Source of the DNA: Nitrospirota bacterium
GTDB taxonomy: Bacteria; Nitrospirota; Thermodesulfovibrionia; Thermodesulfovibrionales; Magnetobacteriaceae
Direction: 5' to 3'
DNA: 37,068 nt
Assembly (NCBI GenBank): GCA_015233015.1
Contig: JADFYO010000034.1
Location: 1-37,068, forward strand
Translations under genes and position numbers: made by a program
Notes under the pieces: generated by a model
Seen by the model: only the letters and a program-made list of their open reading frames with translations
What the model was told of the DNA's origin: nothing
Databases searched by the model: none
Shown: in pieces, positions 21,312 to 36,981 of the stretch
Layout: every line of letters begins with the position of its first letter
Numbering within the stretch: position 1 is the stretch's first letter

Positions 21312-24300
21312 ATGCTGAACATAATACGAAGAATTGGGTTTTTAACAGGGTTTTCTAAACCTGTACAAGGGATTGTCATCGGCCTTTGTGCGGGGGCAAT
21401 TGCCCTTGTTCTGGGGATGTTTCAGTTCGCGGCAGACCTTGAGCTATACACCGTCGATTTGAGATACAAGCTGCGTCCGCCGATTAAGACGCTCCCGGCA
21501 TTAGGGTATATAGATTTCGACGACGCGTCACTGCGTCTTTTCGGGCCGTGGCCGTGGCCGCGTCTAAGACATACGGTGCTTGTCAATACCCTTCATTTTT
21601 ATAACGCGAGGGCGGCGGCGTTTGATGTATTTTTTGTGGAAAGGGAACCCACGGTTTTCTATCCCTCTGTTCTAAAGAAATTCTTGTCTGGCAGTTCTGG
21701 CTCCAAGAACGAAAACGAATTCCTTCGCGTCCTTGACGATTCATTCAGAAATTATGACGAGGAATTTGCTGAGGCTATGACCAAATATGGAAATATTTAT
21801 CTGAGCTACTACACGATAAGGGCATCCGAAGGCGCAGACAGCAAATCAAACGGCATAGTGCGGCCAAACGCGCCAAACACAGGATTAGACTTGCTTAAGA
21901 AAACCTTTCTGCCCATCCCCAAGGGGCTTAACTCCGGTGCCTTATACGCCGACATTCACATCGACGCGCCGCTTGAGGAGTTTATCACCGCGGCAAAGGG
22001 CGTCGGGTATGCAGAGCCAGTTCTTGACAGCGACTCCATTGTGAGACACTACACTCTCCTGCGCCGTTATGATAACTATATGACATACCCTGTTGTATTA
22101 AAAATGCTATCCAATATTATGGATTTTAAACTCTCTGAGATAGAAGTCGCCCCAGGGGAGCACATCATGCTAAAAAATGCCCTGCAATACGGCACAGATA
22201 TGAGGCAGGACGTTAAAATCCCCATATATCAACGCTTCCAGATGCCACTGAATTGGGCTGGTGCTTTTCACGAGACCTACACGCACATCCCCTATGAACT
22301 CATGTCATATTTTTATGCCGTCATCAGGGCAAAGCAAATCGCCTCTGGATATACAGGAGGCAGTTACACTGAGCTGTACGACGAGATATACTCGTACTTA
22401 ATGGAAGACACTCTCATCTCAGAAGACAATGGACGCGGTATTGCCGCTGAGATTACCTCCGCACTTTTAATCTCGAAATATATAGACAGGTCAATGAAAG
22501 AACCGGAAATTTATCGGCAATTAAAACCATACATTAACGAGGATACTATCGGAAGGGTATATGCCGTAGTAACGGCCTCCCTTCAAATCGAGAAAGAATT
22601 GAAAGAAAATCGTGGAGGCAGTGACCCTGCCGCGAACATCAAGGAAAGCTCGTATGCCCCGCAGATTGCAGAGGCGCTAAAAAACATGAAGTGGTATTAC
22701 AGTAAAAACCGGCTCAAAGAAGCCTATCCATATTATTTCCCGAACGCGGCAACGCTTATTAAACAGGGACAGCCGGGCACATTCTCCCCCATAGACATGG
22801 AAGGCATGATATTCATGACAGGCCTGGCCGGGACAGGCACAATTGATCTGAACCCGACCCCATATGAACCCGCCGCCCCTATGGTGTCATTTCACCTCAA
22901 TGCCATAAATTCCATACTCACGGGACAATTTCTGCACTCCGCCCCCACTGCGTACAACCATGCCGTTACCATTGCCTTGTCCATATTGACCGCGATAGTG
23001 GGAGTTTTGACCGGCGTCATAATAACTTCTGCCTTAACGGCGGCGGCAGCGGCAGCTTATACATTTCTCACGTACAAACTCTGGATTATGAAAGGATACC
23101 GAATAGATTTGGTCATTCCTCTTACAGGCATGGCCCTGGCCTATATAACTGTCCTTGTTACTCAATTTGTGAGGATGTTTTTGGAAAGGAAAAAGGTTAG
23201 GTCAATATTTGGTCAAATGGTATCTCCAGCGGTACTAAAGACTATGGAGGAAAACCCGGATAGTTTTACACTGACCGGACAGCGCAAGGCCGCCGCGGTA
23301 TTCTTCTCCTCTCTAAACGGCATGGACGAGGCAATTCGTAAGGTATCGCCTCAGGAACTGCCTGCCCTTCTCAGCATTTACCTCTCACCTAATAGTGATA
23401 TAATTATGAACTATGGCGGATATATCGATAAATATGAAGGGCACGTCATCATGGCGGACTTTGGTGTCCCGATAGACGATGAGTTGGCCGCGGTCAAGTG
23501 TGCCTTTAGCGCGATTGAACAAAGACTTGACTGTGCGGCGTTTAAATACTACGCAGAGGCCGCCTACGGACTTTCTGTAAGCGTGTCCATAGGGTTTAAT
23601 TATGGTTATGTCTCCGCAGGGAATATGGGTTCAGAAGAGAAATTTCAATACACCGTCATGGGAGACCCCGTCAATGTGGCCGCCAGACTGATGGCGGCAA
23701 ATTCTATCTACAACTCAGACTATGCCATCACAGGAGAGGATACCGTACCAGTCATATCAGAATTCGTTCACCTTCGTCTGCTTGACAGGCTCCTGCTGAA
23801 AGGAAAGACCAAACCGCTGACCATTTATGAGTGCATCGGCTGGAAGCCTGAGGCATATCTGAAGCTCCACTCAGGCAAACCTCTGCCCCCGTACTTTAAG
23901 GACCTCTGGATAAAAGCCCCTGCGGCTAAGATAATTGGCTATGTCCATCTGTGGGAAAGGATTTATAATAAGACCGCCCACCCGTTGGCAAAGACTATAT
24001 GGGATTTTTTTAACGAATGCCGTTCAGTTGCAGAGCCGCTCCTGTATAAGAAAATGGCAGAGGATTTCTATAAAAAAATATCAGGCAACGGCAGCACATG
24101 GCATGAGATGATGGCCCTTGCCGGTGCCCCCACTGAAAACGACCTGACCGCCAGCAGATACTTCGGGGAGGCGCTTAAACTCTATTGGGAACGCCGTTGG
24201 GACGAGGCAATTGAGGTATTTGTAAAAAAAGTGCTGCAATATGCACCAAACGACGCCCCTGCGCGGTCTTTTATTAACCGTATAGAGTCATATAAAGAAA

Positions 24301-24350
24301 ACCCGCCCCCGGAGCATTGGCAGGGGGAATTCATTCAGACAAAGAAATGA
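21312..24350 (+). CDS. CHASE2 receptor cyclase-like protein, C2-type half (lacks metal aspartates)
   Basis: A 1012-residue membrane protein: N-terminal TM helix (about 20-38), a large extracytoplasmic CHASE2 sensor (DLRYKLRP, PWPWPRLRH) with a long insert, a C-terminal TM cluster (about 548-625), a class III cyclase domain (about 655-830) and a tail ending in a TPR-like unit (WDEAIEVF, NPPPEHWQGEF). Both metal-binding aspartates are replaced: Ser667 in FFSSLNG and His711 in KYEGHV, spaced 44 residues as in active cyclases. Base-recognition Lys707/Thr781 and transition-state Asn788 and Arg792 (MGDPVNVAARL) remain. Alone it should be inactive; it probably supplies one half of a heterodimer with the next gene, which it overlaps by ATGA. 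Confidence 0.9.
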   Translation: MLNIIRRIGFLTGFSKPVQGIVIGLCAGAIALVLGMFQFAADLELYTVDLRYKLRPPIKTLPALGYIDFDDASLRLFGPWPWPRLRHTVLVNTLHFYNARAAAFDVFFVEREPTVFYPSVLKKFLSGSSGSKNENEFLRVLDDSFRNYDEEFAEAMTKYGNIYLSYYTIRASEGADSKSNGIVRPNAPNTGLDLLKKTFLPIPKGLNSGALYADIHIDAPLEEFITAAKGVGYAEPVLDSDSIVRHYTLLRRYDNYMTYPVVLKMLSNIMDFKLSEIEVAPGEHIMLKNALQYGTDMRQDVKIPIYQRFQMPLNWAGAFHETYTHIPYELMSYFYAVIRAKQIASGYTGGSYTELYDEIYSYLMEDTLISEDNGRGIAAEITSALLISKYIDRSMKEPEIYRQLKPYINEDTIGRVYAVVTASLQIEKELKENRGGSDPAANIKESSYAPQIAEALKNMKWYYSKNRLKEAYPYYFPNAATLIKQGQPGTFSPIDMEGMIFMTGLAGTGTIDLNPTPYEPAAPMVSFHLNAINSILTGQFLHSAPTAYNHAVTIALSILTAIVGVLTGVIITSALTAAAAAAYTFLTYKLWIMKGYRIDLVIPLTGMALAYITVLVTQFVRMFLERKKVRSIFGQMVSPAVLKTMEENPDSFTLTGQRKAAAVFFSSLNGMDEAIRKVSPQELPALLSIYLSPNSDIIMNYGGYIDKYEGHVIMADFGVPIDDELAAVKCAFSAIEQRLDCAAFKYYAEAAYGLSVSVSIGFNYGYVSAGNMGSEEKFQYTVMGDPVNVAARLMAANSIYNSDYAITGEDTVPVISEFVHLRLLDRLLLKGKTKPLTIYECIGWKPEAYLKLHSGKPLPPYFKDLWIKAPAAKIIGYVHLWERIYNKTAHPLAKTIWDFFNECRSVAEPLLYKKMAEDFYKKISGNGSTWHEMMALAGAPTENDLTASRYFGEALKLYWERRWDEAIEVFVKKVLQYAPNDAPARSFINRIESYKENPPPEHWQGEFIQTKK

Positions 24351-27300
24351 CAGCTAAACTTTGGAATAAAATTGTTACGGGAAAAATCTCTAAGCCGCTC
24401 TTAATCGTCTTTGCCATCGGGACTATCATATCGCTTTTGGCAGCAGCGCTTGGCGGGTTAGGGGCCTTCAATAGGATTGAGGACACCGCCCTTGAGATTG
24501 CATTTTTAAAAAGGCCGCCGCTCAAAGCAGACCCGGCCATTATGAGTATCGACATTGATGATGAGGCAATTGCCACACTTGGCCGCTGGCCCTGGCCGCT
24601 TGAGAGACATAAATCTCTCGTTGATTTATTAAAACTCTACAAAAGCCGCTCGGTCATATTCACAGATATCGACATATCGAAGACTGCCCATAATGCGATG
24701 GAAGAAAGCGCCGCGTGGCTACTGAAAGACGCGATTAAAGACGCGTATATTAAGGGCGGCGGCGATATAATGAACGCGGCATTAATTGACAGCGGCGGCG
24801 ACGCCTTTTATAACACACTGAAAGACGATGGAAAGGTCTTTTACACTATAATACTCCCAACGCCATGTGCGGCGCGGGCAGTTCCCCCGAAACCCAAACT
24901 CTCCGAAGGTATTCTTTTCTTAAACGGCATCAGAGGCGGCGGTTTTAACACTATCGTTATGGACAAGCAGGGAATGGTTTTCAGATATCCACTGATTGCA
25001 AGCTGCGATGATACACTCTATCCTTCGCTTGCGCTGGCGGCGGCGATAAAAATTACAAACTCGGACAATGTTACGGTTATCCCGGGCAAATTCGTCACGT
25101 TTGAAAACGCCAAAACCGGCAGAACCGCAATCCCTATCGACAATAAGGGGCAGATGCCGGTAAACTGGGCGGGCAGTTATAAGAGCACATTCCAGCGCAT
25201 TCCATTGGGCCTTGCCGCCGGGTTTATCGTCTTTCAGGAGGCTAAGAATGAGCTGAGGAAATATGATTTGAAAACGATGCCAGACCCCCGCACCGCCCTC
25301 GACCAAGTCATTAAAGAGCTGAAAAAATACAATTACACATCCAAAGACAAAATCGAACTTACCGCGAATTTAGTGTATAATGCTGCTCTGATTGAAAATC
25401 ACCTGAACTCCACCGGCTGTACCGTTAAAGATGCGATAGATTATTTTGGATTACAAGAGAACTGGACAAGGATTGGCAATCAAATAAAATTTAACAACTA
25501 CCTGCTTGTAAAATATGACGAAACCGAAATGCCCCCAGTCTATGAAGACGTAATAAAGGAGCTTGGCTTTACGCCTGAGGAGGCCGAGGCGGCGATGCTC
25601 AAAACCTCCTACGACTTAGTCATGTTTCATCTTGGCAGCGACTCGATACCATTGGTAAGACCCCTCTATTTTGAGAGCGCGGAGCATGTGGTTGATGACA
25701 AAGTTCAGATGGTAAGCCCGTTGATATTAAAGGACAGGATAGTATTTTATGGACTTACGGCAACCGGCCTGACCTCACAAAACCCAACCCCGTTTATGAA
25801 GAGGCACCCGATGCTTGACCTGCCCATAAACGTGCTGAACTCCATACTGACCGGAAAATTTCTCCACGAACTGCCGCGGTCACTAAACTATGCGATAACA
25901 TTCGTGCTTGCTTATGGGATCGTTGTGCTAGTGCTTATGGCTGCCCCGATAAGAAGCGGTGTGATAACTGTTTCAGCGGCGGCAGTGTATTTAGCGCTTT
26001 CATGGCATATGTTTACAGCGCGGGGCATGATAATGCCGGTATCAGAGCCTGTTTTTACTATAATCGGCGCGTATTTCGGCGGAGTTCTCTACAGGTATTT
26101 TAAGGAACGTAACGAGCGCAGGAAGGTCAGGCAGATGTTTTCCACAATGGTATCTCCGGAGATATTAAAGATAATTGAGAAAACCCCCGGCAAGCTGAAC
26201 CTTGGCGGTGAAATCAGACGGGCGACGATGTTTTCGTCAGATGTCTCCGGGTTTACGACCATATCGGAAGGCGTTACGTCGAGGGAGCTGGCAGACATAC
26301 TAAACGTCTATCTGACGCCTATGAGCAACATCATAATGAGCTACGACGGCTATGTTGACAAGTACGAGGGGGATGCGATAAAGGCAGACTTCGGTGTGCC
26401 GTTGAGTGACGCTGCTCACGCGTGGAAGGCCTGCTGGGCTGCCCTTCACCAACAGGAGGAGCTGTTCGTAGTAGGGCGCATGATACTCCTTCAGTATGGC
26501 GTAAAGATAACCGCCCGAATGGGGGTAAACACCGGAGAGGTGCTGGCGGGCAACATGGGTTCAGAGGGACACATTCAGTACACAGTCATGGGGCCGGCCG
26601 CAGCAGTTGCCGAAGAGCTTGAGCCGGCTAACAAACTCTTCGACACATGGATTATGATCGGACACGACACCTGCGAAGACGCCAAAGCCTATATCACAGC
26701 AAGATGCCTCGGCGAAATTCAGACCCATCACGGCACAGAGACCGTATATGAACTTGCGGGGTGGAATAAGGAAAAGTTTCTCTCATACTGGGAACACAGG
26801 CCAGTCCCCAAGCTCCTGATAGAATCTTTCAGTAAACTTAGACCTGAGAAGATCCTGGGCTATAACTATTATTTTAAAAATAAGACACTGCCGGAGCTGC
26901 CCATGCTGACTGAGATTCGAGAGCTGTTTTCTGAACTGGCAGCGCTTTCTGTCCAGTATATGCAGATACGGGATACCATCAATATTGTCTCAATCTGGCG
27001 CGGCATTAACGAATTACAGGAGCGGCTGAAGCCTTATGAAGCAATTTACGTCAATGATGAAGCACCGGAGACAATTCGTTATGAAATCGCGGAACTCAGC
27101 GGCGCGGCGGCGAATGAAACAATACCTTATAAGTCATTGCTCCTCAGCCAGCAAGTTACACTGAAACAGCTCATGGCATATATCGCAACACTTACCGGCA
27201 AAATCAGCAAGGCAGACACCGAAAACTTTTATGACATAGCAGACAGACTTTTAAAGGGCATCGAAAGCATAAACAAGAGGATTAATTGTGCCGGAGATCC

Positions 27301-27712
27301 AACGAGCGCATCCCTTTCGGAAAATCTTAAAGATCTGTTATTAAGGGAAGATTGGGAAGCCACCCAAACAGTGAATGACCTCACAACTCAATATCAGACA
27401 ATCGAGAGGACAATTCGTGAGAGGTTAGGTAAGTTTGCAGATGATCTCAGGCGCGACCCACGGCAATACCACCGTTTAGTTGCAGAGATGTGTACGGTGC
27501 CGGAGGAAAGGCAGATGATGTTCAGGCAATTTGAGAATGGCCTGAGTTTATACAAACAACGAAAGTGGGATGATGCGCTGGATGCCTTCAAACAATGTCT
27601 CGAATTTTCACCTGACGACGGGCCAAGCAGAAAATACATAAAAGAGATTGAACACCTGAAGCAAACCCCGCCGTCAGAAGATTGGACAGGCGCGTTCAGC
27701 AATTCTCAATGA
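24347..27712 (+). CDS. CHASE2 receptor cyclase-like protein, C1-type half (lacks transition-state Asn/Arg)
   Basis: A 1121-residue paralogue of the preceding protein with the same layout: TM helix (about 16-40), CHASE2 (LKRPPLKADP, WPWPLERH), TM cluster (about 515-595), class III cyclase domain (622-790), and a tail ending in a TPR-like unit (KWDDALDAF, PPSEDWTGAF). Metal-binding Asp632 (FSSDVSGF) and Asp676 (KYEGDA) are present. The positions of the catalytic Asn and Arg are Ala753 and Glu757 in MGPAAAVAEEL, so homodimers should be defective. The ATG at 24347 overlapping the previous stop is chosen over the TTG at 24317. The last codons lie inside an inverted repeat shared with the region downstream. 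Confidence 0.9.
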   Translation: MTAKLWNKIVTGKISKPLLIVFAIGTIISLLAAALGGLGAFNRIEDTALEIAFLKRPPLKADPAIMSIDIDDEAIATLGRWPWPLERHKSLVDLLKLYKSRSVIFTDIDISKTAHNAMEESAAWLLKDAIKDAYIKGGGDIMNAALIDSGGDAFYNTLKDDGKVFYTIILPTPCAARAVPPKPKLSEGILFLNGIRGGGFNTIVMDKQGMVFRYPLIASCDDTLYPSLALAAAIKITNSDNVTVIPGKFVTFENAKTGRTAIPIDNKGQMPVNWAGSYKSTFQRIPLGLAAGFIVFQEAKNELRKYDLKTMPDPRTALDQVIKELKKYNYTSKDKIELTANLVYNAALIENHLNSTGCTVKDAIDYFGLQENWTRIGNQIKFNNYLLVKYDETEMPPVYEDVIKELGFTPEEAEAAMLKTSYDLVMFHLGSDSIPLVRPLYFESAEHVVDDKVQMVSPLILKDRIVFYGLTATGLTSQNPTPFMKRHPMLDLPINVLNSILTGKFLHELPRSLNYAITFVLAYGIVVLVLMAAPIRSGVITVSAAAVYLALSWHMFTARGMIMPVSEPVFTIIGAYFGGVLYRYFKERNERRKVRQMFSTMVSPEILKIIEKTPGKLNLGGEIRRATMFSSDVSGFTTISEGVTSRELADILNVYLTPMSNIIMSYDGYVDKYEGDAIKADFGVPLSDAAHAWKACWAALHQQEELFVVGRMILLQYGVKITARMGVNTGEVLAGNMGSEGHIQYTVMGPAAAVAEELEPANKLFDTWIMIGHDTCEDAKAYITARCLGEIQTHHGTETVYELAGWNKEKFLSYWEHRPVPKLLIESFSKLRPEKILGYNYYFKNKTLPELPMLTEIRELFSELAALSVQYMQIRDTINIVSIWRGINELQERLKPYEAIYVNDEAPETIRYEIAELSGAAANETIPYKSLLLSQQVTLKQLMAYIATLTGKISKADTENFYDIADRLLKGIESINKRINCAGDPTSASLSENLKDLLLREDWEATQTVNDLTTQYQTIERTIRERLGKFADDLRRDPRQYHRLVAEMCTVPEERQMMFRQFENGLSLYKQRKWDDALDAFKQCLEFSPDDGPSRKYIKEIEHLKQTPPSEDWTGAFSNSQ

Positions 27713-27883: not shown

Positions 27884-29353
27884 ATGCGAAAAGGCAAAAC
27901 TAAGACGCCCATTACTAAGCCCGACCTTACATTAGAGGTAAAAAACTTTGGTCCAATCAGCAAGGGCAGCATATCGCTAAAGAACCTGACCGTACTGATA
28001 GGACCGAATAACTCTGGGAAGTCGTATATTGCAATGCTCGTTCATGCGTTTATAAAATCGTATTATAACCGTTTTAAAGCTGAAGGGGCTGAGCAATTAT
28101 CGAAACTAAGTAACCCTGAATATGATAGGAACACAATCGAAAAGAATCTGACCGAACTGGAGAAGTTTCTCAACGCTTTCGCCGGAAATTCAAAAGATGA
28201 ATTGGAAATTCCGAAAGAAATATCCGATCAGATTATTGACGAATTATATCAATATTATTTTAAGCATAACTTTATAGATGAAATAGAAACAATATTTGCA
28301 TGTGAAAACAAAGAACTTGTAAGAATCGATGGGACATCGTACACAATAAAGATATTCTGTGACGGAAACGTCAGCGAACTATCCCAAGGACGTAAAAGCA
28401 AGTCTATGAAGCTGACAAACTCTTTTGAATACTTTAAATATAAAATAAGGGATAATGAATCCGCTCTCCCTAAAAAAGATAATAGTGAGAATATATTATC
28501 TTTATATAAGAAAACTATATCAGAAAATATGCATTTTGTAATGAGCGTAATTATATATAATTACAATCTGGAGCTAATCAGACGATCAACAACGCTGCTC
28601 AGTTACTACTTTCCAGCAGGGAGAACTGGCATTTTCCAGAGTTACAGAGCAATTTTATCGAATTCTCTAAGTAATTTTATATATTCGAGTAAATCTAAGA
28701 CTGAATTGCCTCATATTCAATCTGTGGTATTGCGGTTGATATCTGATATTATTTCAATGTCGGATAAAGAAAGTCCTTTGTACAATATTGCAGTTGAGTT
28801 TGAAAAAGAGATCGCTAAGGGAGAAATATTTCTTAAGAAAGTTATTCCCACATCTATTCCTGAAATACAATATAGCTTTAAAGGAGCAACAATCCCTCTT
28901 CACAGGACATCTTCTACTATATCTGAACTTGCGCCTATTATTCTCTATCTAAAATATCTTATCGAACCCGGCAATATTTTGATAATCGAGGAGCCGGAGG
29001 CACATCTCCATCCCGAAAATCAAAGGCTTATGGCTAAGCTCCTCGTGAGATTGATACGAGCGGGAGTTTATGTGATTATCACTACGCACAGTGATTTTCT
29101 ATTGGAACAGTTAAGCAATTATCTGATGCTTTCGTCAGTTCCAGAGAATAAGAAAAAACTTTTCGATATAGAAACTTATTTATCAGCTGATGAAATAGGG
29201 GCATATGTCTTTCAACAGGACAAAACTGGCGGTTACCAGATACGTGCAGTAGAAATCGACAAAGATGATGGTATCTCCGATGAGGAATTCTTAAAGGTAA
29301 ATAAAGCTCTTTATGATGAGACAGTAAGAATAAAAGATGCCATAATGGAATAA
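27884..29353 (+). CDS. AAA family ATPase of the OLD/SMC-like (AAA_15/AAA_21) type
   Basis: A 489-residue ATPase with LEVKNFGPI at its N-terminus, Walker A GPNNSGKS (40-47), a helical insertion rich in charged residues (about 60-330), a Walker B region ILIIEEPEAHLHPE (about 364-378) and a downstream TTHSDFLLEQL switch region. This is the layout of ABC-type ATPases of OLD, RecF and SMC relatives, many of which serve in phage defence. There is no C-terminal TOPRIM domain, unlike full OLD proteins. It is AT-rich by eye compared with neighbours and is followed 5 bases later by a small partner gene, the pattern of two-gene defence systems. The defence role is inferred. Confidence 0.85.
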   Translation: MRKGKTKTPITKPDLTLEVKNFGPISKGSISLKNLTVLIGPNNSGKSYIAMLVHAFIKSYYNRFKAEGAEQLSKLSNPEYDRNTIEKNLTELEKFLNAFAGNSKDELEIPKEISDQIIDELYQYYFKHNFIDEIETIFACENKELVRIDGTSYTIKIFCDGNVSELSQGRKSKSMKLTNSFEYFKYKIRDNESALPKKDNSENILSLYKKTISENMHFVMSVIIYNYNLELIRRSTTLLSYYFPAGRTGIFQSYRAILSNSLSNFIYSSKSKTELPHIQSVVLRLISDIISMSDKESPLYNIAVEFEKEIAKGEIFLKKVIPTSIPEIQYSFKGATIPLHRTSSTISELAPIILYLKYLIEPGNILIIEEPEAHLHPENQRLMAKLLVRLIRAGVYVIITTHSDFLLEQLSNYLMLSSVPENKKKLFDIETYLSADEIGAYVFQQDKTGGYQIRAVEIDKDDGISDEEFLKVNKALYDETVRIKDAIME

Positions 29354-29358
29354 CGGAT

Positions 29359-29856
29359 ATGGTCGAAAAATCAGTTCTTAAATATATTAAAGAAAAATAT
29401 GCTGATGCCGCAATCTTTGAAAGTAGTTGTTTTGACAAACCAGGGAGGCAAAAATGTGAAATACATCTTCAAAACTGTAAAGACTATATAATATTGAAAG
29501 GTGAAGAGGTACGTAAAATCTCAGGCAGTGAATCTAATAAGGTATGTGATTGTATGATCATTATTACAAATAAGAACAGAATTACCCACCTCGTGCTTGT
29601 TGAGATTGATGAAGGAAAAAACAAGAAACCTTCACATGCAAGGGAACAGCTAATGGGTGGATTTGATTTAGCAAAAAGTATTCTTCAAAACGACTACAAT
29701 CCCATACAAGGAAATTATAAGAAAAAGTATATTTTCTTGTATAGAAAAATAAAAAGCCATAAATTAAGGGAGTTTAGGGAAAGCGACAACTATATAGATG
29801 GAAAACCTATACAGTTAGAACAATGCAACTATGCGTTTGACTGTACCTTGTACTAA
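29359..29856 (+). CDS. Small partner of the AAA ATPase, possible PD-(D/E)xK-like nuclease
   Basis: A 165-residue protein not firmly recognised. A core of CDCMIIIT (63-70) followed by LVLVEIDEGK (78-87) and AREQLMGGFDLAKSIL resembles the D...ExK beta-core and following helix of restriction-like nucleases. Asp64 and Glu82 would be the acidic pair and Lys87 a displaced lysine; the strict ExK is not present (EID instead). Such proteins are commonly found beside OLD/AAA_15 ATPases and may be the effector or a cofactor. No HNH (as in Septu PtuB) or TOPRIM motif is seen. It starts 5 bases after the ATPase stop, so the two form an operon. Confidence 0.6.
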   Translation: MVEKSVLKYIKEKYADAAIFESSCFDKPGRQKCEIHLQNCKDYIILKGEEVRKISGSESNKVCDCMIIITNKNRITHLVLVEIDEGKNKKPSHAREQLMGGFDLAKSILQNDYNPIQGNYKKKYIFLYRKIKSHKLREFRESDNYIDGKPIQLEQCNYAFDCTLY

Positions 29857-32004: not shown

Positions 32005-34047
32005 GTGTTGATTAGCGGTAAATTTAATTTGGGGAGCGTTTTAGATTTGGAACGAGTGAAAGATTTATTAGCCAGGCAGCGTTTTTTTCAGAGTGAGCAT
32101 GTCATTCTGAAAAGATCATGGGTTTTTCCTATTGTGATATGGACGGCGCTTGTTTCCGTTTCTCTTGTCTGGAATTTATCTTCGATAAAACGGCAGTCAT
32201 TTGCCATAGTCGAAGGACAGGCGCGCGTTATGTTCGGACTAATAGAAATGACACGCTTGTGGAACTCTCAGCATGGCGGAGTATATGTGCCAGTTACAGC
32301 GGATACTCCACCTAATCCATATCTCTATGTTGAGGACAGAGAAATCCTCACCACAAAAGGCAAAAAATTCACGCTCGTAAACCATGCATATATGATCCGC
32401 CAGATAGGGGAATTAGCAAATGAGTACGACGGCGCATTATTTCACATCACCAGCCTGAAACCAATCAGGCCTGGAAACGCTCCTGACGAGTGGGAGACCA
32501 GGGGGTTGAAGGAATTCGAAAGCAGAAATAAAAAAGAAACATTTGATCTGATAGAAACAGGTGCCGGCCGTTCATTCAGATATATGGCCGCGCTGTTAGT
32601 GAAAGAACCGTGTTTGCGGTGCCATGCAATGCAAGGTTATAAGGTTGGAGATGTGCGCGGCGGCATTAGTATTACGCTGAATGCGGATCCGGTATTTGAA
32701 TCAATTCACACACAATGGAATAATGTTATCGCCTTGCATATAGCTTTTTTTATAGGTGTGTCTGTCCTGATGCTCTATTTTATATCCAGGCGGAGAAAGA
32801 CCGATGAGTTACTGCGTGAGTCGGAGATGGTACTGCGTTCTATAACTCAGTCTGTAAACGAGGCGATTATATCGGCCGACGCCAGTGGAGAAATCATATT
32901 GTGGAACAATGCCGCGGAGACCATTTTCGGTTATACGAGGGAGGAAATTGTGGGCAGGAATATTACCGTTTTAATGCCGGAGCGTTACAGAGCTGTGCAT
33001 ATAAACAGTATGAACCGGTTCGTCAAAGAAGGCAGCTCCAACATCATTGGAAAAATCCTGGAATTGCACGGTTTAAGGAAAAACGATGAAGAGTTTCCTG
33101 TTGAAGTATTGATATCGAACTGGACAATAAAGGATGGGGTATTCTTTACAGGCGTCGTAAGAGATATTACGGAGCGTAAGAAGCTGGAGGCAAATGTCAC
33201 CGAAAAGACAAGACAGCTATCCTCAATGGCCGATGACCTGAAAATAAAGGTAGCCGAGGGGATAGATAAATACAAGAGACAGGAGCAGTTAATCATCCAG
33301 CAGTCAAAAATGGCGGCGATGGGTGAGATGATAGGCGCAATCGCACACCAGTGGAGGCAGCCCTTAAATGCGGTCGGGGTCTTAATTCAGGACCTTCAGG
33401 ATGCCCAAAACTTCGGAGAACTTGACAAAAACTACATGGACGATGCGGTTGAAAGGGCGATGGAGCAGATTCAATTTATGTCGGGGACTATCGATGACTT
33501 CCGGACATTTTTCAAGCCGTCAAAAGAAAAAACACCATTTAGTCTGAAACAATCATTTGACGAGATATGGTCAATTATTTCCGCACAGTTAAAAAATCAC
33601 CAAATAGATTGTCAGGTAATATGCCGTTCAGGAGGCACCAATACACCAGACGTCGATATGCCATGTGACGCCATGACTGTAATTGGTTACCCGAATGAAT
33701 TTAAACACGTTATCATCAATATAATAAATAACGCAAAAGACGCAATTCTCGAATGTATAGAAAAAGAGGCGTTATCGAGAGACGGCGGGAAAATCATAAT
33801 GGATGTCTCCAAAGGTGATAATTCTGTGATAATCGTAAGAATAATAGATAACGGCGGCGGTATTCCCCCTCATATAAAAGAAAAGATTTTTGAACCATAC
33901 TTCTCGACAAAAGGAGACGCCAAAGGAACCGGAATAGGTTTATACATGTCAAAGGTTATAATAGAAAACAACATGGATGGAAGGCTCTATTGTGAGAATA
34001 TCGAAAACGGCACGATATTCGTCATTGAACTGGCACAGCATCTGTAA
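32005..34047 (+). CDS. Sensor histidine kinase with periplasmic CxxCH (heme c) domain and PAS
   Basis: A 680-residue membrane kinase. Two TM helices (39-58 and about 241-261) bracket a periplasmic domain of the Tll0287-like/DUF3365 type with CLRCH (Cys203, Cys206, His207), a c-type heme attachment motif. A PAS domain follows (about 270-395), then a coiled coil, the phosphoacceptor His448 in AHQWRQPLN, and an ATPase domain with NIINNAKDAI, DNGGGIP and GTGIGLYMSK. It probably senses redox or a gas through the heme. No response regulator is adjacent. The start is uncertain: GTG 32005, or TTG 32047 which has GGGGAG 10 bases upstream; both leave the domains intact. The next gene begins 6 bases later. 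Confidence 0.88.
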   Translation: MLISGKFNLGSVLDLERVKDLLARQRFFQSEHVILKRSWVFPIVIWTALVSVSLVWNLSSIKRQSFAIVEGQARVMFGLIEMTRLWNSQHGGVYVPVTADTPPNPYLYVEDREILTTKGKKFTLVNHAYMIRQIGELANEYDGALFHITSLKPIRPGNAPDEWETRGLKEFESRNKKETFDLIETGAGRSFRYMAALLVKEPCLRCHAMQGYKVGDVRGGISITLNADPVFESIHTQWNNVIALHIAFFIGVSVLMLYFISRRRKTDELLRESEMVLRSITQSVNEAIISADASGEIILWNNAAETIFGYTREEIVGRNITVLMPERYRAVHINSMNRFVKEGSSNIIGKILELHGLRKNDEEFPVEVLISNWTIKDGVFFTGVVRDITERKKLEANVTEKTRQLSSMADDLKIKVAEGIDKYKRQEQLIIQQSKMAAMGEMIGAIAHQWRQPLNAVGVLIQDLQDAQNFGELDKNYMDDAVERAMEQIQFMSGTIDDFRTFFKPSKEKTPFSLKQSFDEIWSIISAQLKNHQIDCQVICRSGGTNTPDVDMPCDAMTVIGYPNEFKHVIINIINNAKDAILECIEKEALSRDGGKIIMDVSKGDNSVIIVRIIDNGGGIPPHIKEKIFEPYFSTKGDAKGTGIGLYMSKVIIENNMDGRLYCENIENGTIFVIELAQHL

Positions 34048-34053
34048 AGTAAT

Positions 34054-36981
34054 ATGAATTCAAATATTGATTTAGTAATAAGGGCAATAAACGATAAAAT
34101 CAAAAAAAAGCGGAGGAGCGATAAAATACTTATAAAAACGATAGTGACATTGCTCATTGTTATGTTGCTGCCCGTTCTTTCTTTTGCCGATGTGCCCTCT
34201 CCTAACACTTATACCTTAAAGGCAAGACTTGCTCTGAAAAGTGAAAAACATCAGGTTTTGACGACTCTTCCATTCCATTGGAATATGAATATGATAACAC
34301 CCGACAATAGCGGCAATGGATGGATTGAAAAAAAAGGCTGTTTAATATGGCTTCCGGGCGGAAAAAGGCGAGTGTTTAAGATGCCGCTGGAGATTTCGAA
34401 ACTTAACGGCGGCAATGCCGGAAGACCCACGTTTCCCCGTGATTTTAAGGAGTTGTGGATTGAGTATAAAGACATAAGTCCTCAAACCCCGTGCGAAATA
34501 GGCGTTATGCTTAATTTTAATCCTGACGCTGATGTCAAAAAAGTTAAATATGATACAGCTATTGGTGGCAGCAAAGTCCCATTGAACATTGAAACCATTA
34601 ATGTAGCTGGTTTGGATGATAAGGACTTGCGTTATACAAAGGACTGGCACTTTTCAAGTGACAATCTTTCAGTTATCAAAAAAAGGCTTCATAAAGACAT
34701 CTCGACCATAGATAAGGCTAATCTTGGATTTTCTCCCGGTACTAAAATCAAAGCTATTTACCTGAGACTGGCGTTCAAGGATAGTTCAAGATCAGACGAA
34801 ACAGTGATATGGGATAAATTGCCAAAGACTATTACTACGGACAAAGATGAAACAACAGTAAGCATTTGGCTAGGCAGGTATTTAAGAAAGAGCTATCCCA
34901 ATGAGGGGAAGGTATTTATAGAGGAGCTTATAGTACATCTGAATAACCATATCGATCAGGTTGTCAAAAATCGTCCATTCAAGAGGCTTACTCTTATATG
35001 GAGTGAGTATTTACTCATGGCGGGTAAAACGGATGAAACAGACACAGAACATAAGACTATTAAAGTGGATATATCGGAGTTATCAGACATCTATGGAAGA
35101 GATGGAAGAGACGGTGGCGCTGCCCTTAAACAGGCGTCGTTATATGTAACTCCATCTAATGTCAATAGCTACTGCGGTCTTCGGCTTAAAAGAATAATGG
35201 CGGTGAACAGTTATGAAGGAGAAAGACCGGTAGTTATTTCAGCTATTGATAATATGAACAAAGGCTTTGGCGGACCTTTTATGGAATTGTCTGGCGATGA
35301 TGACAATGTTGAGGCCTTGAAGTTTTTGAATTATCATTCCTTTGGTAATCTGAATAAGTCGAAGATTATGGAAATATCTGTTAAGCAAGGCCCTTTTGAT
35401 AATTCCACCGGTATGAAAGAATCCTTAATGGACGGTCATAACGTTAAAATAACCACTACAGTTGCGAATAGTCCACATACTTCCATGAGTTGCTTTAAAG
35501 ATAATGAACAGGTGAAAGAAAGAAAAGCGGCCGCACGAATAGAAATATTATGGTCAACCAGTATAATGATAAAAGATAATACGTATTTTATCATCAGGCT
35601 AGCTGGCGGTACTGAATTTGTGAAGTCCGGGGTGATGACCTTAAAGTCCGAAAGAGGAGAACAATTCAAAAGGGTTTTTAAGCCGGACATGCCACTGGAT
35701 CTAACAGGTATCAGGGGCAGGATAACCGAAATCAGCCTCAATATGGATTTACACGAAGGCCCTTTTACTGTCAGGTTTAAAGATATGGCCTTGTTCAGCC
35801 CTGTTTCGCTTCCCCTCGCAGAGGCAATGGAGATACGACACCCGTTGGAAGTTACTGAACCGCTATACCCTGAGATTGATAATAAGTCTGGCACTATAGA
35901 TGCCTCGCGGGGCATTCTCAATGGGGTTGTATTGAGAAGCGATTTAGCCAGAGGTTTTCAATGGAATACAAGGGTTGAAAATAAGACTGGTATCAGGGGC
36001 GTTCATCTTGACTTTATAAATAGCAGGACTGTAAACCCGGAAAGCCCTTGCTGGTTAAGCCTTACATTTATAGGGGAGCGTCAACGGTTATCGAGAGACG
36101 TTTGCAGTGAATCACTAAAGGGTCAAGTCTATATTCCCCTTCCCGATATATTTGCATATGGAGGTGCTGACAAACTTCGCTTAATTCAATGGAAACTCGA
36201 TATGGGAAAGCAAATTGTCGATAACAGCCAACCATGGTCTTTCAATTATAAATTGTCAATAGATAGAATGGCAGGAATGTCAATAAGTGAGTTAATTACA
36301 GATGCTGCAATCCTTAGTGTTGGCGAAAAGAACCTCTACCCGATGAAGACAACGATTGATTTTACCACTGGACAGCTGTCTGCAGGAGCATGGTTGGATA
36401 TGGGATCAATGGTAATTGATAACATAACGAATGACATAAAAGTACTTGACAATCCCTATGTAGAGGTAACATCATTCGTTGCTGAGCGTGTCTTTCCAGA
36501 CGGGCAGCATTATATACCGGAATTTGAGGAAAAGGGAAAAGTCATCATGTCTCCATGGCCTCATAGACTGCTCAAAACAGGAATAGCCCTCTTCATTCTT
36601 GCTTCAGCTGTACTTGGATGGATTGATCGATGGTGGCAGAGGCTATGGCAAAATATAAAATACGGCATCGTGTTTATTAGGGGCTATTTAGGGATAATCA
36701 GAGAAAAAACATGGGCAAAACTCTTGCCGGGAAATTTACATAAAATGATATTTTGGATAGTTTTAAGCGGCGTAATGTATGGACTTAACCCTGAAGGAAC
36801 GGCAACCAATAGCTCCTGTCTTAGTGTTGGCGGTCTGTTTGGATTTATGGCTTTCAGGAGCCTGTCGTGGTTAATGCGTCCAATGATAATCAGGCAATGG
36901 AGCGCAGCTGATCAAAGGATTTACAAAGAAAGTGGCAATGTTGATCAACGACAATTAAAATTACCGGCTGACGACAATTAA
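34054..36981 (+). CDS. Large membrane-anchored periplasmic protein of unknown function
   Basis: A 975-residue protein I do not recognise. It has an N-terminal signal anchor (about 28-44, IVTLLIVMLLPVLSFA) after a basic 25-residue leader. A long beta-rich exported region (about 45-830) has repeated sandwich-like segments (for example GTKIKAIYLRLAF, LDLTGIRGRITEISLNMDL). The C-terminus has two or three hydrophobic segments (about 838-856, 895-910, 925-940) separated by a Trp/Arg-rich stretch (WIDRWWQRLWQ). The shape suggests a periplasmic partner of an inner-membrane machine, perhaps polysaccharide export, but there is no direct evidence. It starts 6 bases after the kinase stop and lacks a clear ribosome binding site, so coupled translation is likely. 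Confidence 0.7.
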   Translation: MNSNIDLVIRAINDKIKKKRRSDKILIKTIVTLLIVMLLPVLSFADVPSPNTYTLKARLALKSEKHQVLTTLPFHWNMNMITPDNSGNGWIEKKGCLIWLPGGKRRVFKMPLEISKLNGGNAGRPTFPRDFKELWIEYKDISPQTPCEIGVMLNFNPDADVKKVKYDTAIGGSKVPLNIETINVAGLDDKDLRYTKDWHFSSDNLSVIKKRLHKDISTIDKANLGFSPGTKIKAIYLRLAFKDSSRSDETVIWDKLPKTITTDKDETTVSIWLGRYLRKSYPNEGKVFIEELIVHLNNHIDQVVKNRPFKRLTLIWSEYLLMAGKTDETDTEHKTIKVDISELSDIYGRDGRDGGAALKQASLYVTPSNVNSYCGLRLKRIMAVNSYEGERPVVISAIDNMNKGFGGPFMELSGDDDNVEALKFLNYHSFGNLNKSKIMEISVKQGPFDNSTGMKESLMDGHNVKITTTVANSPHTSMSCFKDNEQVKERKAAARIEILWSTSIMIKDNTYFIIRLAGGTEFVKSGVMTLKSERGEQFKRVFKPDMPLDLTGIRGRITEISLNMDLHEGPFTVRFKDMALFSPVSLPLAEAMEIRHPLEVTEPLYPEIDNKSGTIDASRGILNGVVLRSDLARGFQWNTRVENKTGIRGVHLDFINSRTVNPESPCWLSLTFIGERQRLSRDVCSESLKGQVYIPLPDIFAYGGADKLRLIQWKLDMGKQIVDNSQPWSFNYKLSIDRMAGMSISELITDAAILSVGEKNLYPMKTTIDFTTGQLSAGAWLDMGSMVIDNITNDIKVLDNPYVEVTSFVAERVFPDGQHYIPEFEEKGKVIMSPWPHRLLKTGIALFILASAVLGWIDRWWQRLWQNIKYGIVFIRGYLGIIREKTWAKLLPGNLHKMIFWIVLSGVMYGLNPEGTATNSSCLSVGGLFGFMAFRSLSWLMRPMIIRQWSAADQRIYKESGNVDQRQLKLPADDN

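Follow-up and report, generated by a model that had tools for sequence, protein, structure and literature searches.

How could two neighbouring genes, each encoding a class III cyclase domain with half of its active site replaced, make one functional enzyme? Positions 1 to 37,068 of contig JADFYO010000034.1 from a Nitrospirota bacterium (assembly GCA_015233015.1), the whole stretch referred to here as the window, raise this question with two overlapping forward-strand genes, named P1 and P2. Our answer, which we consider highly probable, is that P1 and P2, both membrane sensors, form an obligate heterodimer, which would possess a single working adenylyl cyclase site and would have arisen by duplication followed by loss of opposite half-sites. 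Physical pairing, activity, product and homodimer inactivity are what we infer from the sequences, their conservation, selection, a phylogenetic tree and gene linkage.

Two complementary half-sites

P1 (21312-24350) encodes 1012 residues, and P2 (24347-27712) encodes 1121 residues if its start is taken as the ATG within the ATGA overlap (24347-24350), which comprises the P2 start codon and the P1 stop codon. The two catalytic domains lie on separate frames and are not fused in one chain. Both proteins contain CHASE2 (PF05226) and Guanylate_cyc (PF00211) domains with scores exceeding the curated cut-offs. Each has an N-terminal transmembrane segment, CHASE2, more hydrophobic segments, the class III cyclase domain and a C-terminal extension, which in P2 ends like a tetratricopeptide repeat (TPR). 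Specifically, hydropathy places the N-terminal transmembrane segment of P1 at residues 14-45 (21351-21446) and the segments following CHASE2 at residues 547-587 and 597-624 (22950-23183). The best Pfam stretch for the CHASE2 sensor domain of P1 covers residues 31-328 (21402-22295, E = 3.8e-31), and that for its Guanylate_cyc domain covers residues 659-796 (23286-23699). In P2, the best CHASE2 stretch spans 24437-25207, with a second one at 25676-25909, and Guanylate_cyc spans 26219-26635. Both proteins have the canonical layout of bacterial CHASE2 cyclases, i.e., CHASE2, transmembrane helices and a cyclase domain. Their identity to each other is 23% in the CHASE2 regions and 38% in the cyclase domains. 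Structure matches were to CyaB (3r5g), CyaC (1wc1) and Rv1625c (1yk9) for P1, and to the C1 domain of transmembrane adenylyl cyclase (1azs) for P2. Most full-length homologues are about 110-215 residues longer than the P1 of the window, which apparently lacks a C-terminal helical stretch; BLAST matches between P1 (21312-24350) and its homologues break around residue 914.

Residue roles were assigned by alignment to Pseudomonas CyaB (3r5g) and Spirulina CyaC (1wc1), and neither chain holds a complete catalytic set. P1 has lost the metal side. Ser667 (23310-23312) replaces the first metal aspartate and His711 (23442-23444) the second. The base, ribose and phosphate side is kept, namely the base-specifying Lys707 (23430-23432) and Asp785 (23664-23666), the transition-state residues Asn788 (23673-23675) and Arg792 (23685-23687), and Lys830 (23799-23801) of the KGK motif. 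P2 keeps the metal side, with Asp632 (26240-26242), Asp676 (26372-26374) and the P-loop Gly635-Phe636-Thr637 (26249-26257), and has lost the other: Ala753 (26603-26605) replaces the asparagine, Glu757 (26615-26617) the arginine, and Pro750 (26594-26596) the base-specifying aspartate. Lys672 (26360-26362) at the base site is kept although it lies on the pseudo-site side. The two metal positions are 44 residues apart in P1 and P2 alike. The earlier note on this DNA had read the exchanged and retained metal, asparagine and arginine positions and the spacing from the sequence, and the alignment confirms the residues and their numbering. The division goes further than that note described, in that the P-loop Phe and Thr belong to P2 only, the KGK Lys belongs to P1 only, and P2 has lost the base-binding aspartate.

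Conservation, linkage and history of the pair

Relatives and 396 genomes of the phylum were searched for homologues, giving 18 P1 and 17 P2 proteins including the window pair; 34 ordinary CHASE2-type cyclases of the same order served as controls. The note had suggested looking for other genomes with the same paired substitutions, and 17 further ones were found, all from one Nitrospirota order and belonging to two families. Identity to the window proteins is 35-76%, with a minimum of 38% for P1 and 35% for P2 among homologues aligned in full. Both metal aspartates are present in 0/18 P1, 17/17 P2 and 34/34 controls; Asn and Arg in 18/18, 0/17 and 34/34, respectively. The P-loop Phe follows the metal aspartates (0/18, 17/17 and 34/34), and Thr is likewise lost in all P1. 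The KGK Lys is found in 18/18 P1, 0/17 P2 and 22 of the 34 controls, the base-specifying Asp in 18/18 P1, 7/17 P2 (lost in 10) and 33 of the controls, and the base-specifying Lys in 18/18 P1. Because the half-site pattern occurs in 18/18 P1 and 17/17 P2 homologues but in 0/34 controls, the split is more than chance or decay. Homologous pairs that break the complementarity were sought, and none was seen among 17 pairs, which include an unlinked one. The C1/C2-like arrangement proposed in the note is hence supported, with P1 as the C2-like half and P2 as the C1-like half. Independent assemblies show the same pattern, for example GTDB contigs JADFXO010000108.1 and JADFXZ010000008.1.

Retained catalytic positions are invariant, against a background of 35-38% invariant columns in the cyclase domains, and lost positions vary among two to five residues. 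The first metal position of P1 is S, A, L, M or K, and the second is H, A, V or N. In P2, the base-specifying Asp position is D, E or P, the Asn position is T, A, H, E or R and never N, and the Arg position is E in 16 homologues and K in one. In the four genomes where His711 of P1 is replaced (by N, A, V and A), P2 likewise departs from the usual A or T at its Asn position, with E, H, H and R. Since about 10% of variable columns split in that way, the co-change is no evidence by itself, and co-variation within the pseudo-site is suggestive only and too weak to claim. Two further positions are invariant among P2 homologues: residue 679 (26381-26383), a Lys in the motif GDAIKA that is Met in most cyclases, and residue 756 (26612-26614), a Glu directly preceding the Arg position.

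P1 adjoins P2 in every genome examined except G012, and the P1-P2 linkage is the only one conserved across otherwise differing neighbourhoods. Sixteen tandem loci were examined, including one truncated by a contig end. In 15 of them, P2 starts at ATGA or GTGA or at most 12 nt from the P1 stop; in the remaining locus it starts 117 nt downstream of P1. In G012, P1 and P2 lie mid-contig on different contigs and keep the complementary pattern. The overlap had been thought to balance synthesis of the two proteins. Translational coupling is indeed common, but it is not required, because G012 has both genes unlinked. Neither P1 without P2 nor P2 without P1 was seen among the homologue genomes. G004 was considered as a P1-only genome and rejected, as the P2 start is present and runs into the contig end. 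The one adjacent cyclase pair noted among the matches listed in a survey of 101 genomes, in G099, was likewise set aside as being of another kind, with the metal aspartates in both genes. A collection-wide scan with P2 returned two close relatives only, a plasmid scan gave distant matches only (<60% identity), and the nearest named records are the "Nitrospirae bacterium" metagenome-assembled genomes nDJH14bin7 and nDJH5bin4.

We then estimated the ratio of nonsynonymous to synonymous substitution (dN/dS, Nei-Gojobori). It is 0.02-0.11 for the cyclase domains of both genes and 0.09-0.27 for the whole genes, values that are rough for distant pairs as some synonymous distances are near saturation. 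Both broken cyclase domains are under strong purifying selection. In a maximum-likelihood tree with the 34 controls, P1 forms one clade and P2 another, and the joint clade has a support of 100/99. Long stem branches call for some caution about the sister relation, with which the large architecture common to both proteins agrees. Sister clades fit a history in which a CHASE2 class III cyclase was duplicated once and the copies then underwent complementary loss of opposite half-sites, which would be the simplest course.

The proposed composite site and its alternatives

The half-site loss is complementary in two paralogous domains, and the two metal aspartates, the Asn and the Arg are all available for one site at the P1-P2 interface. 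There, P2 would supply the metal ligands D632 and D676 and the P-loop, and P1 would supply K707 and D785 for adenine selection, N788 and R792 for transition-state stabilisation, and K830. As the adenylyl-type Lys/Asp pair sits on the Asn/Arg subunit, the site is predicted to prefer adenine over guanine and to produce cyclic AMP from ATP. The mirror site, combining S667 and H711 of P1 with A753 and E757 of P2, would be incapable of catalysis, and the P1 and P2 homodimers would each be inactive. Output would therefore need both CHASE2 proteins, and two diverged CHASE2 regions would control one catalytic centre. The claim of an obligate heterodimer with one working site is supported by the homologue pattern; "obligate" and "one working site" are properties that we infer from it. 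A fuller picture adds that this bacterial enzyme may have evolved its C1/C2 division independently of eukaryotes, may act as an AND gate for two CHASE2 sensors, and may use the dead pseudo-site (H711 of P1 and E757 of P2) as a regulatory or structural contact. We rate the chances of this whole picture as even.

Several observations weigh against the composite site. All P2 homologues retain the base-site Lys, and 7/17 retain the Asp, where a split site would have no need of them. Full-length single-chain AlphaFold models of P1 and P2, built from six-row alignments, have mean predicted local distance difference test scores of 39 and 43. All genomes with the pair belong to a single order, and many of them are draft metagenome-assembled genomes. 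In G146, an in-frame TAA (L097:2812-2814; L050:2362-2364 region) leaves P2 as two frames, of 523 and 645 codons, through either decay or a sequence error; the cyclase domain downstream of this TAA has a dN/dS of 0.02 versus G318.

Three other explanations were considered. P1 and P2 might not be mutual partners; each might instead form homodimers that use a non-standard site or serve a non-catalytic role, or pair with another cyclase of the cell. Non-canonical residues at these catalytic positions do occur in some class III enzymes, e.g., Rv0386, and the genome offers nine other cyclase-domain places. The exact complementarity in 17 pairs is set against this, and co-inheritance, tight tandem linkage and joint retention when unlinked point to each protein as the partner of the other, so that we regard separate partners as very unlikely. 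The pair might also be a pseudo-enzyme, that is, a non-catalytic signalling complex with ATP bound at the composite site. The residues of that site would suit nucleotide binding too, and catalysis by the pair is read from sequence. However, the residues for chemistry beyond binding, i.e., both metal aspartates, Asn and Arg, are each retained by the proper partner in every case, which makes mere binding very unlikely. Decaying pseudogenes or an assembly artefact, to which the G146 homologue could point, are barely credible given frames open in all other genomes, the low dN/dS of the cyclase domains and a pattern repeated in independent assemblies, and decay of P1 and P2 was rejected on dN/dS and conservation.

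If P1 and P2 do form the proposed heterodimer, they provide a model in which each half has its own gene and in which post-duplication loss, sensor integration and the role of the pseudo-site are testable without G proteins. Annotation gene by gene as "adenylate cyclase" or "dead cyclase" would mislead for both.

Genomic surroundings and known cyclases

The genome is a 3.8-Mb draft. Its 11 cyclase-domain places, together with 29 matches to the cyclic nucleotide-binding family, make its cyclic-nucleotide signalling elaborate. Several homologous loci have a large FecR-domain protein (L109:866-4933) or a clustered relative (L103:15250-17949), together with a TPR or related protein, upstream of P1; a FecR-domain or TPR protein at this place is a possible periplasmic sensing partner. 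The inverted repeat TTCCGGACAAGCCGGAATGAC has two facing copies upstream of P1 (21109-21129 and 21188-21208) and two near the window start (213-233 and 266-286), and looks like a dispersed palindromic element of the repetitive extragenic palindromic or miniature inverted-repeat transposable element type. Downstream of P2, an AAA_15/AAA_21 ATPase gene is closely followed by a gene for a 165-residue protein without Pfam match (27884-29856), an arrangement that resembles OLD-like or defence ATPase pairs. A 975-residue frame without Pfam match (34054-36981) follows a sensor kinase (32005-34047).

Within a class III dimer, base-specifying and transition-state residues on one subunit face the metal aspartates on its partner, and of the two sites in C1/C2 enzymes only one is complete (PMC4174876). 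Class III adenylyl cyclases of bacteria have been described as homodimeric, the two monomers together forming two productive centres (PMC9552081). A bacterial split-site cyclase pair was not found in our literature search, whose reach did not extend to most subscription papers. The closest likeness is to the C1 and C2 domains of mammalian transmembrane adenylyl cyclases, which carry the metal aspartates in one half and the base-specifying and transition-state residues in the other, with one active site and one pseudo-site (PMC4174876), and which originated by duplication (PMC9552081), as proposed for P1 and P2. In contrast to them, P1 and P2 are two bacterial proteins from two genes with the C2-like gene first, have two CHASE2 sensors instead of two six-transmembrane domains, and are apparently of separate origin within one Nitrospirota order. 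If so, evolution reached the C1/C2 arrangement known from animal adenylyl cyclases on more than one occasion.

Soluble guanylyl cyclase α/β also consists of separate subunits sharing out active-site residues, and its catalytic domains are reported to be inactive as homodimers and active as a mixture (PMC3591389). It is eukaryotic, haem/NO-sensing and guanine-specific, whereas the Lys/Asp pair of P1/P2 predicts adenine. Bacterial CHASE2 cyclases such as Sinorhizobium meliloti CyaD1, CyaD2 and CyaK, of the family to which the 34 controls also belong, share CHASE2, transmembrane helices and a cytoplasmic class III domain with P1 and P2. Unlike P1 and P2, the 34 CHASE2 controls keep both metal aspartates, Asn and Arg, and are hence expected to be two-site homodimers. 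The chytrid rhodopsin cyclases are obligate heterodimers in which RGC1/RGC2 retain all catalytic residues (PMC8815786). NeoR/RGC1, like the proposed P1/P2 pair, is an obligate two-gene membrane-sensor heterodimer that places two different sensors on one cyclase core; the difference is that P1 and P2 each lack half of their site.

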